This document shows positions 12,311 to 17,300 of a DNA stretch of 22,732 bases, piece after piece. The notes under the pieces were generated by a model, which was given only the letters and a program-made list of their open reading frames with translations, did no database searches and had not been told where the DNA came from. This stretch comes from a virus. Numbering within the stretch: position 1 is the stretch's first letter; the number at the start of each line of letters is the position of its first letter. The stretch is from IMG/VR virus record IMGVR_UViG_3300020472_000186, positions 1-22,732 of that record. One strand, 5' to 3'. Made by a program: the position numbers and the translations under genes.

Positions 12311-14014
12311 TTATACAGTCATTAGGGAAGTCATTTGAGCATATTTAGTTGCAGTAAGGTATGGGTTCATTATTCTAGTCCCACTTCCACCACCTTTACT
12401 AGATCCTGAAACTGGCGAATTTATTATAGTCTGTCCATTATTATTCACAATTGTTATTGGACCACTATCCAAAGCCCAGTTAGGTACTATAACACCATCT
12501 TGTTCAGGTATGAATAATTCTTCACCTATCTCACCAACTTTGTATGGGTTACCTGCTATAACAGGACCACCGTCTGCTTTGGGTTTTGTGAAATGGAAGT
12601 CTGATCTTGTACCTGGACCTTTTTTTAAATTCTTTACTGAAGGATATATTGATCTAGTTGGATTAGCTACATTAACTTTGAGACCTTGTGGACTGATTAC
12701 TTTTTTCTTTACTAATTTTTTAATAATCAAATCTAATGCATTCAGTTCAGTTTGAGCATCTAATATTCTTCTTTCTGCCTCAAAATTTATAGTCCTTTGT
12801 TGCTTTCCAAAATTCATAAGACTTCGCCAAAACTTCTTCGCTTGACCTGCCAAAAACCAATCCTTTCTTATTACTGCTAATTCTCCTTTCTTTACTAAAA
12901 CTATTTGACCAGGTTTTGATACTGGTACTATAGTTGTTACAGGTTTATTGAATTTTACAAGTTGTCCAGCCTTGAAAAGTCTCCTAAGTAATGGAATTTT
13001 TCTAGCAGTTTCAGCAACCTTAGCCCATGCAAGCATATCTCCAAACCATGCATCCCAAGGTATTAGTGTTATACCTATAGCAACTCCTATTTCAGTAGTA
13101 AGTCTAAACCAATCACTTTTCCAGAAAGGTTTGCTAGGAGCTTTAGGAACAAAACCAAATATCTTATCATCATCTTTCTTTCTTCTTGATAAAAGTTGTT
13201 GATTACTACCTGGCAATCCTTTCCTTTGTAACTTATCTAATACATCATCAAGTTTATCTAATGCCTTAGAGAAAGGAGTTACCATTTGCTCTATTGCTTG
13301 TGCCTGAACTAGTTGCTGTCTTCTATCATCTGCACCAGTAAAGAAATCTGCTATATTAGCACCTATACCTGATCCTAATATACTACCACCTACACCACCA
13401 ATAAATCCACCAATAGCTGCTCCTGGAGCAGCACCTACTCCACCAAATAATGCACCAATTGATCCACCAACAATAGCACCTGCTTTTGCACCTGCAGCAC
13501 CACCTGCCAATGCACCTGCTAATCCACCACCTGCACCAACACCTGCCTGTAAATTAGTTTGACCATCTGCCTTACGACCCATAAAGTCCAAACCAGTAGT
13601 TAGAACTGCAAGAGGACCAATACCTCCTCTTAGTCCTCTTAGACCTGGTAGTCTAGCACCTTTAGATCCTCTAAGAAGACCACTTGTAGGTCTAATATTA
13701 TTAGAAGGTACTCTTGGTCCACCACCTTTTATACCACGAAAACCACCTCCACCACCTCTAAACCTTCTTAGTATACTACCACCTGTTAGACCACCAAATA
13801 AACCACCAAGTATACCACCAAGACCACCGCCACCACCTTCTCTATCATCATCTAAAGAATTGAAAGTCTGCCTTCTCTTCTCAATTAGTTTCTTTCTTGC
13901 TTCAAGAGATAAACCTTCAAGCCTTCTTTCAACAATATAGCTCGTTCTTACAGCATTGAGTACAAGACCTGAAGTCTTTACTGCTTTATTAGATACTAAT
14001 CTTAGATTACTCAT
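12311..14014 (-). CDS. Tape-measure-like tail protein, 567 aa
   Basis: Residues 1-55 are a basic helix. Residues 58-105 are very Gly-rich (GGGGGLGGILGGLFGG), and residues 157-220 are a Gly/Ala hydrophobic stretch (GGLAGALAGGAAGAKAGAIV). Gly/Ala stretches of this kind are usual in tape-measure proteins, which can insert into the host membrane. Residues about 479-515 read GGPVIAGNPYKVGEIGEELF then IPEQDGVIVPNW. This is the widespread tape-measure C-terminal motif G-x-P-Y-x-V-G-E-x-G-x-E-L-F. The gene starts by an ATGA overlap with the previous gene and ends 2 bp before the gp27-like gene, matching the usual order chaperone, tape measure, hub. T4 gp29 (590 residues) is the functional counterpart I would expect; direct homology is not visible to me. 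Confidence 0.65.
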   Translation of the reverse strand: MSNLRLVSNKAVKTSGLVLNAVRTSYIVERRLEGLSLEARKKLIEKRRQTFNSLDDDREGGGGGLGGILGGLFGGLTGGSILRRFRGGGGGFRGIKGGGPRVPSNNIRPTSGLLRGSKGARLPGLRGLRGGIGPLAVLTTGLDFMGRKADGQTNLQAGVGAGGGLAGALAGGAAGAKAGAIVGGSIGALFGGVGAAPGAAIGGFIGGVGGSILGSGIGANIADFFTGADDRRQQLVQAQAIEQMVTPFSKALDKLDDVLDKLQRKGLPGSNQQLLSRRKKDDDKIFGFVPKAPSKPFWKSDWFRLTTEIGVAIGITLIPWDAWFGDMLAWAKVAETARKIPLLRRLFKAGQLVKFNKPVTTIVPVSKPGQIVLVKKGELAVIRKDWFLAGQAKKFWRSLMNFGKQQRTINFEAERRILDAQTELNALDLIIKKLVKKKVISPQGLKVNVANPTRSIYPSVKNLKKGPGTRSDFHFTKPKADGGPVIAGNPYKVGEIGEELFIPEQDGVIVPNWALDSGPITIVNNNGQTIINSPVSGSSKGGGSGTRIMNPYLTATKYAQMTSLMTV

Positions 14015-15489
14015 GATCCTAATGAAGCATAAGTTTTAAGTGATAAAGCATAATCAAACTTATCAATTGCACCACCACCTTTCATAAATGAGGTATGAAC
14101 TTCAGGACTTCCCGTTGGTCCTGTACCTTCAGGTATTGGAGCAGTTCTCTGAGTTGTAGTACCATTATCATTGTCTATGATTATTGGTTCCTTTTGCTTA
14201 TTACCACCACCAATTTTAATATTTTTGAAAGGATTACTTGGTCTCCAATCCAACCAACTCTTTTTATCTTTATCATCAGATATACCAAAATTCGATTCAA
14301 AAACAGATTCTAATTTATCAATATCATTTTCTGTTTCTATTTTTGTAGATAAAATAGGTTGTTTCTCTTCTTCACCTGTCTGAATAGCAATCTCAGCAAG
14401 TCTTCTAGTATCTGCTGTTGAGGATGTATCAAAAACTTTACCTATATTAAGTCCTTGAAGATCTGTAGTTGCAACTGGAATTCCCCTACTAGCATTCATA
14501 AAATTCATCCATCTATCATCATTTGTTTCAGAAACAAATGCAAGATCTTTAGAAAGAGAACCTAATTGACCACTTAACTTATCATCTTGTATTATTTCTT
14601 TTTCTACTTCTTTATCCTTATCCTTTTTTTCATCAGGTTCAAAGGGTTTAGGTTCTACAACACCTATAGCATCCTTTGCAGATTGTGTATAATTCTTATT
14701 TGGTTTTAATTCTATATCTGGTTCTTTTTCTTTAATTGTTGGTATACCTTTTTCTTCTTCAGGAGAAGAAATACCAAAACTATCTAAGATAGAATCAAAT
14801 CTATCAAGTTGAGATCTAAATCTTTCGCTATCAGATACATTGACAGCAGGACCCTCAGTTGATAATAGGGTTGATGATTTTCTTCTTTCATCAGCTTGAC
14901 TTTTTCCACCCATCAATATCATTGCAGCAAGTGCTGCAATCGTCAATAAACCACCTTTACCTCCAAGTCCTCTCATCTTACCACCACCAGCAGCAATGGG
15001 AGAAGTACCACCACCTTTTGCCCCTACACCCAATCCTAACAATGCAGCAACACCCATTGCTATCTCAGGTATAAAAGCTGTTATAGCAACTCCAAAGTTT
15101 GAAGTAGCATCACCAACGTTACCATCAGATAAATCTCTAGCACCTGCTGCTGCAGCAATAATTCCTATATCTCTACGTAACTCAAAGAAAGCACCTGCTC
15201 TAATAGAATCCAGATTCTCAGAATCCTTCTTCATCAACTTCTGTTCTGCTATAAAAAATTTCTGTCTTGCCCTCATATCACGTCTTATCTCTGCTCGAAT
15301 CACCTCCATATTATTATTCAGTTGTTCAAACTGAAGCATAATACGTCCAAACTGTCTTGCCTGTGGTCCTCTCTCAATCTGCTGATTCTCTTCACTACGC
15401 CTAATCAATGCATCATAAGCATTACTCATTCTACGTTCCAATGGAACCATAGGAGTTTGTGGTTGAATTGTACTACCAGGCGTTTGCAT
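14011..15489 (-). CDS. Second tape-measure-like or hub-associated tail protein, 492 aa
   Basis: Residues about 35-105 form a charged helical or coiled-coil region. Residues 107-195 are hydrophobic and Gly/Ala-rich (DIGIIAAAAGA, VAITAFIPEIAMGVAALLG, LLTIAALAAMILMGG). Residues 200-440 are highly charged and probably disordered. The C-terminus (KGGGAIDKFDYALSLKTYASL) resembles the end of the next protein (GGGSGTRIMNPYLTATKYAQM) in composition and ending. The two genes overlap by ATGA, so they are likely coupled. The pair may be a divided tape measure, or one may be a hub protein that travels with it. I do not recognise a specific T4 counterpart. Confidence 0.5.
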   Translation of the reverse strand: MQTPGSTIQPQTPMVPLERRMSNAYDALIRRSEENQQIERGPQARQFGRIMLQFEQLNNNMEVIRAEIRRDMRARQKFFIAEQKLMKKDSENLDSIRAGAFFELRRDIGIIAAAAGARDLSDGNVGDATSNFGVAITAFIPEIAMGVAALLGLGVGAKGGGTSPIAAGGGKMRGLGGKGGLLTIAALAAMILMGGKSQADERRKSSTLLSTEGPAVNVSDSERFRSQLDRFDSILDSFGISSPEEEKGIPTIKEKEPDIELKPNKNYTQSAKDAIGVVEPKPFEPDEKKDKDKEVEKEIIQDDKLSGQLGSLSKDLAFVSETNDDRWMNFMNASRGIPVATTDLQGLNIGKVFDTSSTADTRRLAEIAIQTGEEEKQPILSTKIETENDIDKLESVFESNFGISDDKDKKSWLDWRPSNPFKNIKIGGGNKQKEPIIIDNDNGTTTQRTAPIPEGTGPTGSPEVHTSFMKGGGAIDKFDYALSLKTYASLGS

Positions 15490-15670
15490 TAGCGTGTTCT
15501 GCTTGCTGTGCTTCTAGTTTTTGTTTTTCTAGATATTTTACAAGATAATTTACATAAATTTCCTTTTCCCAAGGAATCAAATTCTCAATGTCACTAAGAC
15601 TCCACTTATGATACTGAATCAATGCGAAATTAGTTTCCATCATTGAATCAATAGTCACATGATACATCAT
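15473..15670 (-). CDS. Small tail-assembly chaperone-like ORF, probable frameshift extension of the gp26-family gene
   Basis: The product is 65 residues (MMYHVTIDSMMETNFALIQYHKWSLSD begins it). The core YHKW-x-LSDIENLIPWEKEIY plus a charged helix resembles the short second product of tail-assembly chaperone pairs, where a W/L-rich helix precedes a Lys/Gln-rich tail. Its ATG overlaps the stop of the gp26-family gene (TAATG), but no ribosome binding site precedes it: the bases before are GCAAATTTTTTCGCATA. A -1 shift at that T run would read into this frame without a stop. It may therefore be made mainly as a fusion of about 308 residues. T4 gp51 is another possible counterpart. Confidence 0.6.
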   Translation of the reverse strand: MMYHVTIDSMMETNFALIQYHKWSLSDIENLIPWEKEIYVNYLVKYLEKQKLEAQQAEHANANAW

Positions 15671-16398
15671 TATGCGAAAAAATTTGCTAATCCCTCAATT
15701 ACTATCTCTTGTTCGACTTTAGTGTTAGGATTAGTTACATTACCCTTATACTGTAACTTAGGCATAGTCTCAAAGAATTTTTCAATTTTAGCAAACTGTT
15801 GTGAATTCAACTGTTCAATAAACTTGACCAATTCCTTCTTAGTACAATCAGATGCAGACCACGACTCTTCATTAGTGTATATTTGATCAATAGAGTCAGC
15901 AACTGCTTCAAATGCCTTTTCAATTCTCTCACCACCCTCAATATTAGTCATAGTAAAATTACTATCAATAAATTGTTGTAATGATGGATACTTCAACTTC
16001 ATAAGAAGTCCTTCACCAAGATCAACTATTTCAGTGTGACCATCAGGGACATGAAGTATAATATCCGATAATGCAATAGATAATGGAACTTTAGTCTCAT
16101 TATCATCTTGACAAGTAACTATCAACTCAACAGTTTCACCAATAGATTTTCCTCGAATATTTAAGAATAAGTATTCTAAGTCAAAACTTGGTAAATCATC
16201 AATTTTCACGCCACGACTAGTAATACAAGATTTTAGTACTTCTTTTATAGTGGCAGTAATATCTTTCTCGTTACCATTTTCTAGAGCAATCAACAAAGCC
16301 TTTTCCTCTTTTACAAGGAATGGTCTAAATTTTACTGATTTTTCAGAAGAAAGTAATTTCAGTTCAAAAGTAGGTGCGGTGACCTTTGGTAATGGCAT
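15670..16398 (-). CDS. gp26: gp26-family baseplate hub / tail-assembly protein
   Basis: The product is 242 residues, slightly longer than T4 gp26 (about 208). Residues 22-40 (VKFRPFLVKEEKALLIALE), a helix with IKEVLKSCI, and residues 66-90 (KIDDLPSFDLEYLFLNIRGKSIGE region) are the hallmark pattern of the T4 gp26 baseplate family. The rest alternates beta strands (VELIVTCQD, HTEIVDLGEGLLMKLKYP) and helices, ending in KIEKFFETMP and VEQEIVIEGL. In T4 the protein acts in assembly of the baseplate hub in the cytoplasm. Downstream genes are tape-measure-like, so a chaperone role for the tape measure is plausible. It follows gp54 with a 32-bp gap containing GCTAAATA. The last codons carry a slippery sequence. 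Confidence 0.8.
   Translation of the reverse strand: MPLPKVTAPTFELKLLSSEKSVKFRPFLVKEEKALLIALENGNEKDITATIKEVLKSCITSRGVKIDDLPSFDLEYLFLNIRGKSIGETVELIVTCQDDNETKVPLSIALSDIILHVPDGHTEIVDLGEGLLMKLKYPSLQQFIDSNFTMTNIEGGERIEKAFEAVADSIDQIYTNEESWSASDCTKKELVKFIEQLNSQQFAKIEKFFETMPKLQYKGNVTNPNTKVEQEIVIEGLANFFA
15676..15685 (-). other. Candidate -1 programmed frameshift site (A AAT TTT TTC)
   Basis: On the minus strand the final codons of the gp26-family gene are GCA AAT TTT TTC GCA TAA. They contain two overlapping canonical X-XXY-YYZ heptamers, A-AAT-TTT (15679-15685) and T-TTT-TTC (15676-15682), in the correct phase. After a -1 slip on TTT TTC the reading becomes CGC ATA ATG ATG TAT, which is the frame of the 65-codon ORF. 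A weak 6-bp stem (TCAATG/CATTGA, arms 15641-15646 and 15619-15624) lies downstream. Frameshifting is inferred. Confidence 0.5.
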
Positions 16399-16430: not shown

Positions 16431-17300
16431 TTATCCTGGAGGAAGTCTGCCCTCATTAGAAGGATCAGTTTCCCACTCTTGTATTGACCTATTGATCCTA
16501 TGTGGTGCATCTGCTGTATGTTGACCTCTTATATCACCAAAAGTGTCAGATGTTCTAAGAACTGGTCCTCTTCTAGAACCACGATCAATATAGAAGTAAT
16601 CATACTTGAACGTTACTGAGGTCTTGATCAACTCTGCTTGACCATATGCTAATGGTGCTGCAATAATATTGACAGGAAATATATTCTCAAGAAAGTATGT
16701 AATACTACTAGGTTCTTTTACACTATACCTATTACCTGATCTCAATGCTTCAGGAGGAGAATTTACTGATTTACTAAAAGCAGTTACTTCCATATCAACC
16801 TTATACTGTGCAGGATACTGTAATCTCCTATATGAAGCTGGTTGATTCCTTCTTTCTCTTGTCGAACGACCATGACCTGCACCCATTCTTGTAGGTGAAA
16901 TAAATTCCATCCACTGATTGAATACCTCATTAGTATAATAATCTGTCTGTGAATACCATGTTAGCACAACTTCAGGATAACTTCTAAACGTAGCATAGTT
17001 TTGCTGAACACCCTGACGTAACCCCTTTACTTCTTGAAAATCAATATTAGATCCAGGCAGAACTGCTTCAGAACAAAATAATGCCATATAGTTACCAGGA
17101 TTGGAGTTTCCTGAAGGTTGATCATAAAATCCACCTTGGTTTATAAATTGCCTCAAATTATCTGCTTTACCAAAATTTATCCACACATCATAATTATTAT
17201 TGAACGCAGGAGTAAGATTCCCAAAGTTAGTTGATGTTTCATACAACTCAGCAGTTGGGAGATAAAACCTTTCCGTTTCTAGTGCATTAGGTCGTGCCAT
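16431..17300 (-). CDS. gp54: gp54-like baseplate tail-tube initiator
   Basis: The product is 289 residues, against 320 for T4 gp54. The central part follows the tail-tube/initiator fold. ALFCSEAVLPGSNIDF matches the strand and loop before the tube interface (T4 has KMPENRLSY at this place). RSYPEVVLTWYSQTDYYTNEV and FNQWMEFISP match the T4 segment DPLVISFRMDSE...MQDWVNSVQDP. KYDYFYIDRG near residue 235 is the last conserved strand. The protein should sit on the gp48 cap and start polymerisation of the tail tube. The minus-strand block begins here, and the gene diverges from gp4 across a 33-bp gap. No clear ribosome binding site is visible before ATG 17300. Confidence 0.75.
   Translation of the reverse strand: MARPNALETERFYLPTAELYETSTNFGNLTPAFNNNYDVWINFGKADNLRQFINQGGFYDQPSGNSNPGNYMALFCSEAVLPGSNIDFQEVKGLRQGVQQNYATFRSYPEVVLTWYSQTDYYTNEVFNQWMEFISPTRMGAGHGRSTRERRNQPASYRRLQYPAQYKVDMEVTAFSKSVNSPPEALRSGNRYSVKEPSSITYFLENIFPVNIIAAPLAYGQAELIKTSVTFKYDYFYIDRGSRRGPVLRTSDTFGDIRGQHTADAPHRINRSIQEWETDPSNEGRLPPG

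Follow-up and report, generated by a model that had tools for sequence, protein, structure and literature searches.

Gene order and the gp26-gp51 junction

We analyzed a 22.7-kb IMG/VR virus fragment over its full length of 22,732 nucleotides (the window), in which a gp26-family gene and a 65-codon open reading frame (ORF) both lie on the minus strand (Table 1). The small ORF was read here as positions 15473-15670 (-), in the -1 frame relative to gp26. It belongs to the gp51 family (phrog_634), so that a fusion of the two would be a gp26-gp51 protein; in the annotations of relatives, this extension is listed as a gene of its own. The pair follows the tail-tube gene and precedes tape-measure-like genes, with the match to PHROG tape-measure families two genes downstream. 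The product of that latter gene is likely the client of the putative chaperones discussed below. No significant match was found in Pfam, PHROGs or NCBIfam for the 492-aa protein that lies in between, whose start sits inside the gp51 extension with an overlap of 17 nt. The NCBIfam search returned nothing for gp26 or gp51.

Table 1. Positions in the window of the genes and signals at the gp26-gp51 locus, with the basis for each assignment.
Feature	Position	Strand	Basis
Tail tube protein, directly upstream of gp26	16431..17300	(-)	PF23849 4.7e-13, phrog_45 1.1e-24
gp26-family gene, zero-frame product of 242 aa (putative TAC-N, the short tail assembly chaperone)	15670..16398	(-)	PF12322 4.7e-67, phrog_150 5e-72
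Shine-Dalgarno-like GAGGGA, ending 8-9 nt upstream of the heptamer	15691..15696	(-)	Codon bias in relatives
Overlapping heptamer A_AAT_TTT	15679..15685	(-)	Present in the window; not kept in relatives
Candidate slippery heptamer T_TTT_TTC, one codon before the gp26 stop	15676..15682	(-)	Conserved in-phase T_TTT_TTN
Zero-frame stop codon TAA, bypassed by the proposed -1 shift	15670..15672	(-)	Sequence
-1 frame extension, gp51-family C-terminal domain (putative TAC-C)	15473..15676	(-)	phrog_634 1.9e-21
492-aa protein at the tape-measure position	14011..15489	(-)	Position alone
Tape-measure-like protein	12311..14014	(-)	PHROG tail tape measure families 3.8e-9, 4.9e-8

The mRNA at the junction reads GAG GGA TTA GCA AAT TTT TTC GCA TAA (TGATGTAT), then TGA TGT. 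The original prediction was that two overlapping slippery heptamers at the end of gp26 allow a -1 frameshift into the small ORF. Its coordinates, both heptamers, the frame and the 308-residue fusion were all correct on the minus strand: the -1 product would be exactly 308 aa long, with the junction N-F-F-R-I-M. An in-phase T_TTT_TTN occurs a single time among the ten main genes of the window. The claim that the small ORF has no ribosome binding site of its own was also borne out. No Shine-Dalgarno sequence lies 5-14 nt from either of its ATG codons in the window, the nearest element of this kind being GAGGG, which ends 21 nt upstream.

Conservation and selection around the heptamer

Relatives were collected from viral-contig scans and annotated phage records, giving 241 distinct loci after removal of duplicates. 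Alignment of this junction across relatives, which had been proposed as a check, showed an in-phase T_TTT_TTN 0-1 codon before the gp26 stop in 238 of the 241 loci. The frame relation from gp26 to gp51 was always -1, while the flanking codons drifted. The -1 frame stayed open for 149-203 nt beyond the gp26 stop in every locus with a visible end (233/233). Of the two heptamers first proposed, T_TTT_TTC was conserved and A_AAT_TTT was not. We dropped the latter as a slip site because it is absent in relatives, in which the codon before TTT is AGT, TCT, GAT, AAT, GCT or GGT; judging from this drift, it is probably incidental.

The exceptions among the 241 loci were two Ackermannviridae and one Vibrio phage. 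On a wider look, a T6 run was missing from eight loci at the periphery of the family, six of them from Ackermannviridae and two from Vibrio phages, again with the -1 frame open. In this group, gp26 of the Ackermannviridae ends in ATT TTC ATT stop or GTT TTC ATC stop, and that of the Vibrio phages in CTT TT(T/C) NNN stop. These T6-lacking loci (L089, L093, L094, L301-L304 and L306) have (A/G/C)TT TT(C/T) one codon before the stop, suggesting that the group may reach the same fusion through another slip site. A search with Vibrio D481 as the query found no relatives among viral contigs.

The same arrangement as in the window was present in phages of Pseudomonas, Stenotrophomonas, Aeromonas, Vibrio, Citrobacter, Rhizobium and Nitratidesulfovibrio. 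In the last case, phage SRB7757 (L088), which infects a sulfate reducer, has a GAT TTT TTC ... stop junction and a gp51-like extension, and it widens the host range of the gp26-gp51 arrangement.

Codon statistics were computed on 134 representatives with less than 80% mutual nucleotide identity, with expectations derived from codon use, and column entropy on 131 mutually diverged homologues. The six T columns had zero entropy, compared with approximately 1.5 bits for the neighbouring columns just upstream. The P-site codon was TTT in all 134 representatives, where 93 were expected, and the codon before it also ended in T without exception (134/134, against 86 expected), even though the residue encoded there could be Ser, Asp, Asn, Ala or Gly. 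At the A site, the codon alternated between TTC, TTT, TTA and TTG, sometimes replacing Phe by Leu, with the T-run unchanged. Read from these alignments, the direction of selection is unmistakable and points to the nucleotides of the T-run.

In relatives, a Shine-Dalgarno-like GGAGGG precedes the heptamer by about 10-15 nt. Its Glu codon was GAG in 95 of the 134 representatives (42 expected), its Gly codon was GGG in 32 (10 expected), and its pairing with the anti-Shine-Dalgarno was stronger than in synonymous versions, with P values of 1.3e-20, 2e-9 and 1.5e-13, respectively, which assume independent homologues and are overstated, that is, too small, because the homologues are phylogenetically related. 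The codon preceding the Glu codon ended in G in 63/134, compared with 34 expected. GGAGGG is thus apparently selected beyond coding need, and the element likely acts as a frameshift stimulator.

The RNA just downstream of the heptamer folded more stably than its shuffled versions (mean z of -1.6 to -1.7). No stem common to all loci emerged there, as the RNAalifold consensus was empty over 132 sequences. In one lineage, a hairpin of 9-10 bp is located 6 nt after the heptamer (31/132, against 0-3 in the partner-sliding control), and another lineage has a different, 5-bp hairpin (GGTCCATATGGACC; 17/132). A few compensatory changes were seen in the 9-10 bp hairpin, of the GTATGGCTCA...TGAGTCATAC type (L016, L027, L061, L083 and approximately 27 others). 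The window fits neither lineage hairpin strongly, and its own downstream hairpin is weak (-5.0 kcal/mol).

The -1 site of the unrelated E. coli gene dnaX combines an internal Shine-Dalgarno sequence ~10 nt upstream of the heptamer with a downstream stem-loop, whereas the hairpin is not universal here. It may be that the chaperone sites of marine T4-like phages are composite and dnaX-like, with an internal Shine-Dalgarno, conserved and ~10 nt upstream, setting the efficiency, the hairpins being lineage specific, and the ratio of short to long form being retuned by swaps of stimulators around an invariant heptamer; we would put the case for this proposal level with the case against.

Translation of the gp51 domain

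Initiation signals for gp51 were scarce. In 62 of 238 loci, the stretch from the heptamer to the conserved NFxL domain contains no ATG, GTG or TTG, and a Shine-Dalgarno sequence preceded any start in 5 of the 238. The two sequence patterns named beforehand as counting against the original prediction, namely heptamer loss in related phages and a small ORF in other frames behind a good ribosome binding site, thus did not hold among the relatives. Residue 5 of the -1 frame (counted from 0), the usual annotated "start" Met, was Leu in 58 of the 131 homologues and Met in 68; in the alignment it behaves as a hydrophobic position, apparently not as a start site. Annotation of this region is uneven. 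Of 60 phage records that match the small ORF, sampled at even steps, 10 were without a feature there, 6 more had only the last base of gp26, and in the remaining records the small ORF was begun at differing codons. In none of the public phage records examined were the two frames joined. The gp51 extension is unannotated in the public records L084, L098, L090 and L303, despite an open -1 frame.

We considered three other explanations of the junction, all of which are disfavoured by the evidence. If gp51 were a small gene in its own right, reached by termination-reinitiation (translational coupling) at TAATGATG, the T-run would be incidental. In the window, the gp26 stop is overlapped by ATG ATG, which would permit reinitiation, and public records give gp51 as its own gene. 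However, this overlap is not kept among relatives, as the loci without a start and the Leu at the "start" position indicate, and the nucleotides of the T-run are invariant where the encoded amino acid changes. Coupling would also require no fixed frame, whereas the one observed never departs from -1. We find this explanation very improbable.

We give the same small credence to RNA polymerase slippage on the T6-8 run, which would generate mixed mRNAs encoding the fusion. The homopolymer run of 6, or of 7-8 in some relatives, might invite it, but 6 is a short run for slippage by a bacterial polymerase. Moreover, the phase N NNT TTT TTN that is kept in 238/241 loci is unneeded by a polymerase, and the upstream Shine-Dalgarno-like element and downstream hairpins suit a ribosomal site. 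Finally, it is scarcely credible that the -1 ORF is a decaying remnant and that the run reflects only an FF dipeptide at the gp26 C terminus, as found also at the end of T4 gp26 (GLKEFFELL), since the P-site codon is never TTC whereas 31% of the other Phe codons of the gene are, and since the -1 frame has coding periodicity from the junction onward and is never interrupted.

We are therefore confident, short of certainty, that the locus encodes a TAC-N/TAC-NC pair made by programmed -1 frameshifting. Most ribosomes would end gp26 at TAA and release the 242-residue short form (TAC-N). A fraction of them, holding tRNAs on TTT (P site) and TTC (A site), would slip by -1 on T_TTT_TTC and continue in the -1 frame, which would add the gp51-family domain and yield the 308-residue long form (TAC-NC). 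The heptamer, the frame relation, the missing initiation signals and the selection on the run are there in the sequence; what we infer is that slippage occurs and how efficient it is, along with the stimulation by the upstream Shine-Dalgarno-like element and the chaperone function. By analogy with lambda gpG/gpGT, both forms may cover the tape-measure protein while the tail is assembled and bring in tail-tube subunits.

Proposed chaperone function and related systems

The predicted model of gp26 had a pLDDT of 84. Among solved structures, the best match to its residues 1-86 was the HK97 tail assembly chaperone 2ob9 (Z 7.7, below 8; rmsd 4.0 over 84 residues), followed by 3fgx and 3klu, phage-like proteins that we take to be TAC-like. 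The comparison is suggestive of an N-terminal fold shared with the HK97 TAC, though its Z score falls short of what would prove one. A sequence search of solved structures gave nothing relevant. The proposal that gp26 and the small ORF correspond to lambda G and G-T fits both this fold match and the position of the locus, which is where such chaperones are expected.

With lambda gpG/gpGT the window would have in common that ribosomes shift by -1 shortly before the short chaperone gene ends, at a site upstream of the tape-measure gene, and produce a C-terminally extended form. The slip heptamer of lambda is G_GGA_AAG, as against T_TTT_TTC here; the C-terminal domain belongs to the gp51 family and not to gpT, and the phage is one with a contractile tail. 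The TAC of Vandenendeviridae/Andersonviridae (phage Adele, PMC12846349) likewise has a conserved -1 open frame, a poly-T at the TAC-N end and a downstream ORF annotated as a separate gene. Its motif is GTTTTT, compared with T_TTT_TTN in exact phase and 0-1 codon from the stop here.

Tail assembly chaperones were assigned in T4-like phages by Vladimirov, Gautam and Davidson (Virology 2022, 566:9-15), as cited in PMC12846349 and PMC10885494. According to the first of these citing papers, that work found that the TAC-N genes of T4-like phages carry poly-T signals for frameshifting; the second states that some T4-like phages have the short and long forms as separate genes. A T4-like phage with a poly-T signal in its TAC-N gene is what the window shares with these cases. 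Chaperone frameshifts occur in many phages, and a frameshifted chaperone in T4-like phages is thus a known kind of system, of which the window is a further case, and the view that a frameshift at the gp26 position was undescribed did not hold. The chaperones of that study presumably belong to the same gp26 and gp51 families, and its abstract is said to report that several T4-like groups have retained frameshifting and that T4 relies on genes 26 and 51. Our literature search, which reached the 2022 study via citing papers, found no paper linking cyanophages to a gp26 frameshift. The Shine-Dalgarno-like GGAGGG and the lineage-specific hairpins are apparently fresh details, for which no description was found.

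Cyanophage gp51 was described by Sullivan et al. in 2010 (PMC3037559) as being without the first ~200 residues of T4 gp51 and amounting to ~20% of it; the gp51 passages found in that paper do not mention frameshifting. In marine T4-like phages, gp51 is very probably the tail of a frameshift product and not a gene of its own. This would explain why cyanophage gp51 looked like such a small part of its T4 counterpart, and why many records omit it or give it arbitrary starts. Taken over all loci, the proposed chaperone frameshift is documented for hundreds of phages common in the ocean, and the sites form a clean natural series for the study of the determinants of frameshift efficiency.

In hhalign comparisons, T4 gp26 matched the N-terminal part of the fusion (4e-15), and T4 gp51 (7e-9) was collinear with the fusion over residues 13-286 of 308, the -1 frame extension lining up with the C terminus of T4 gp51. 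T4 genes 26 and 51 are separate and on opposite strands, and T4 fits the type with separate chaperone genes. The window differs in having a putatively frameshifted pair, in which gp51 is not a separate full-length protein but a C-terminal domain only, directly behind gp26 in the -1 frame. As T4 gp51 spans the whole fusion and has its own gene, T4 would obtain the long form from that gene, and the marine lineage, by inference, by slippage. T4 gp26 is itself homologous to the N-terminal part of T4 gp51 (blastp 2e-6 in a two-sequence comparison; L099, 5803-6429 and 6480-7229), which would fit an origin of gp51 as a duplicated and fused long form.
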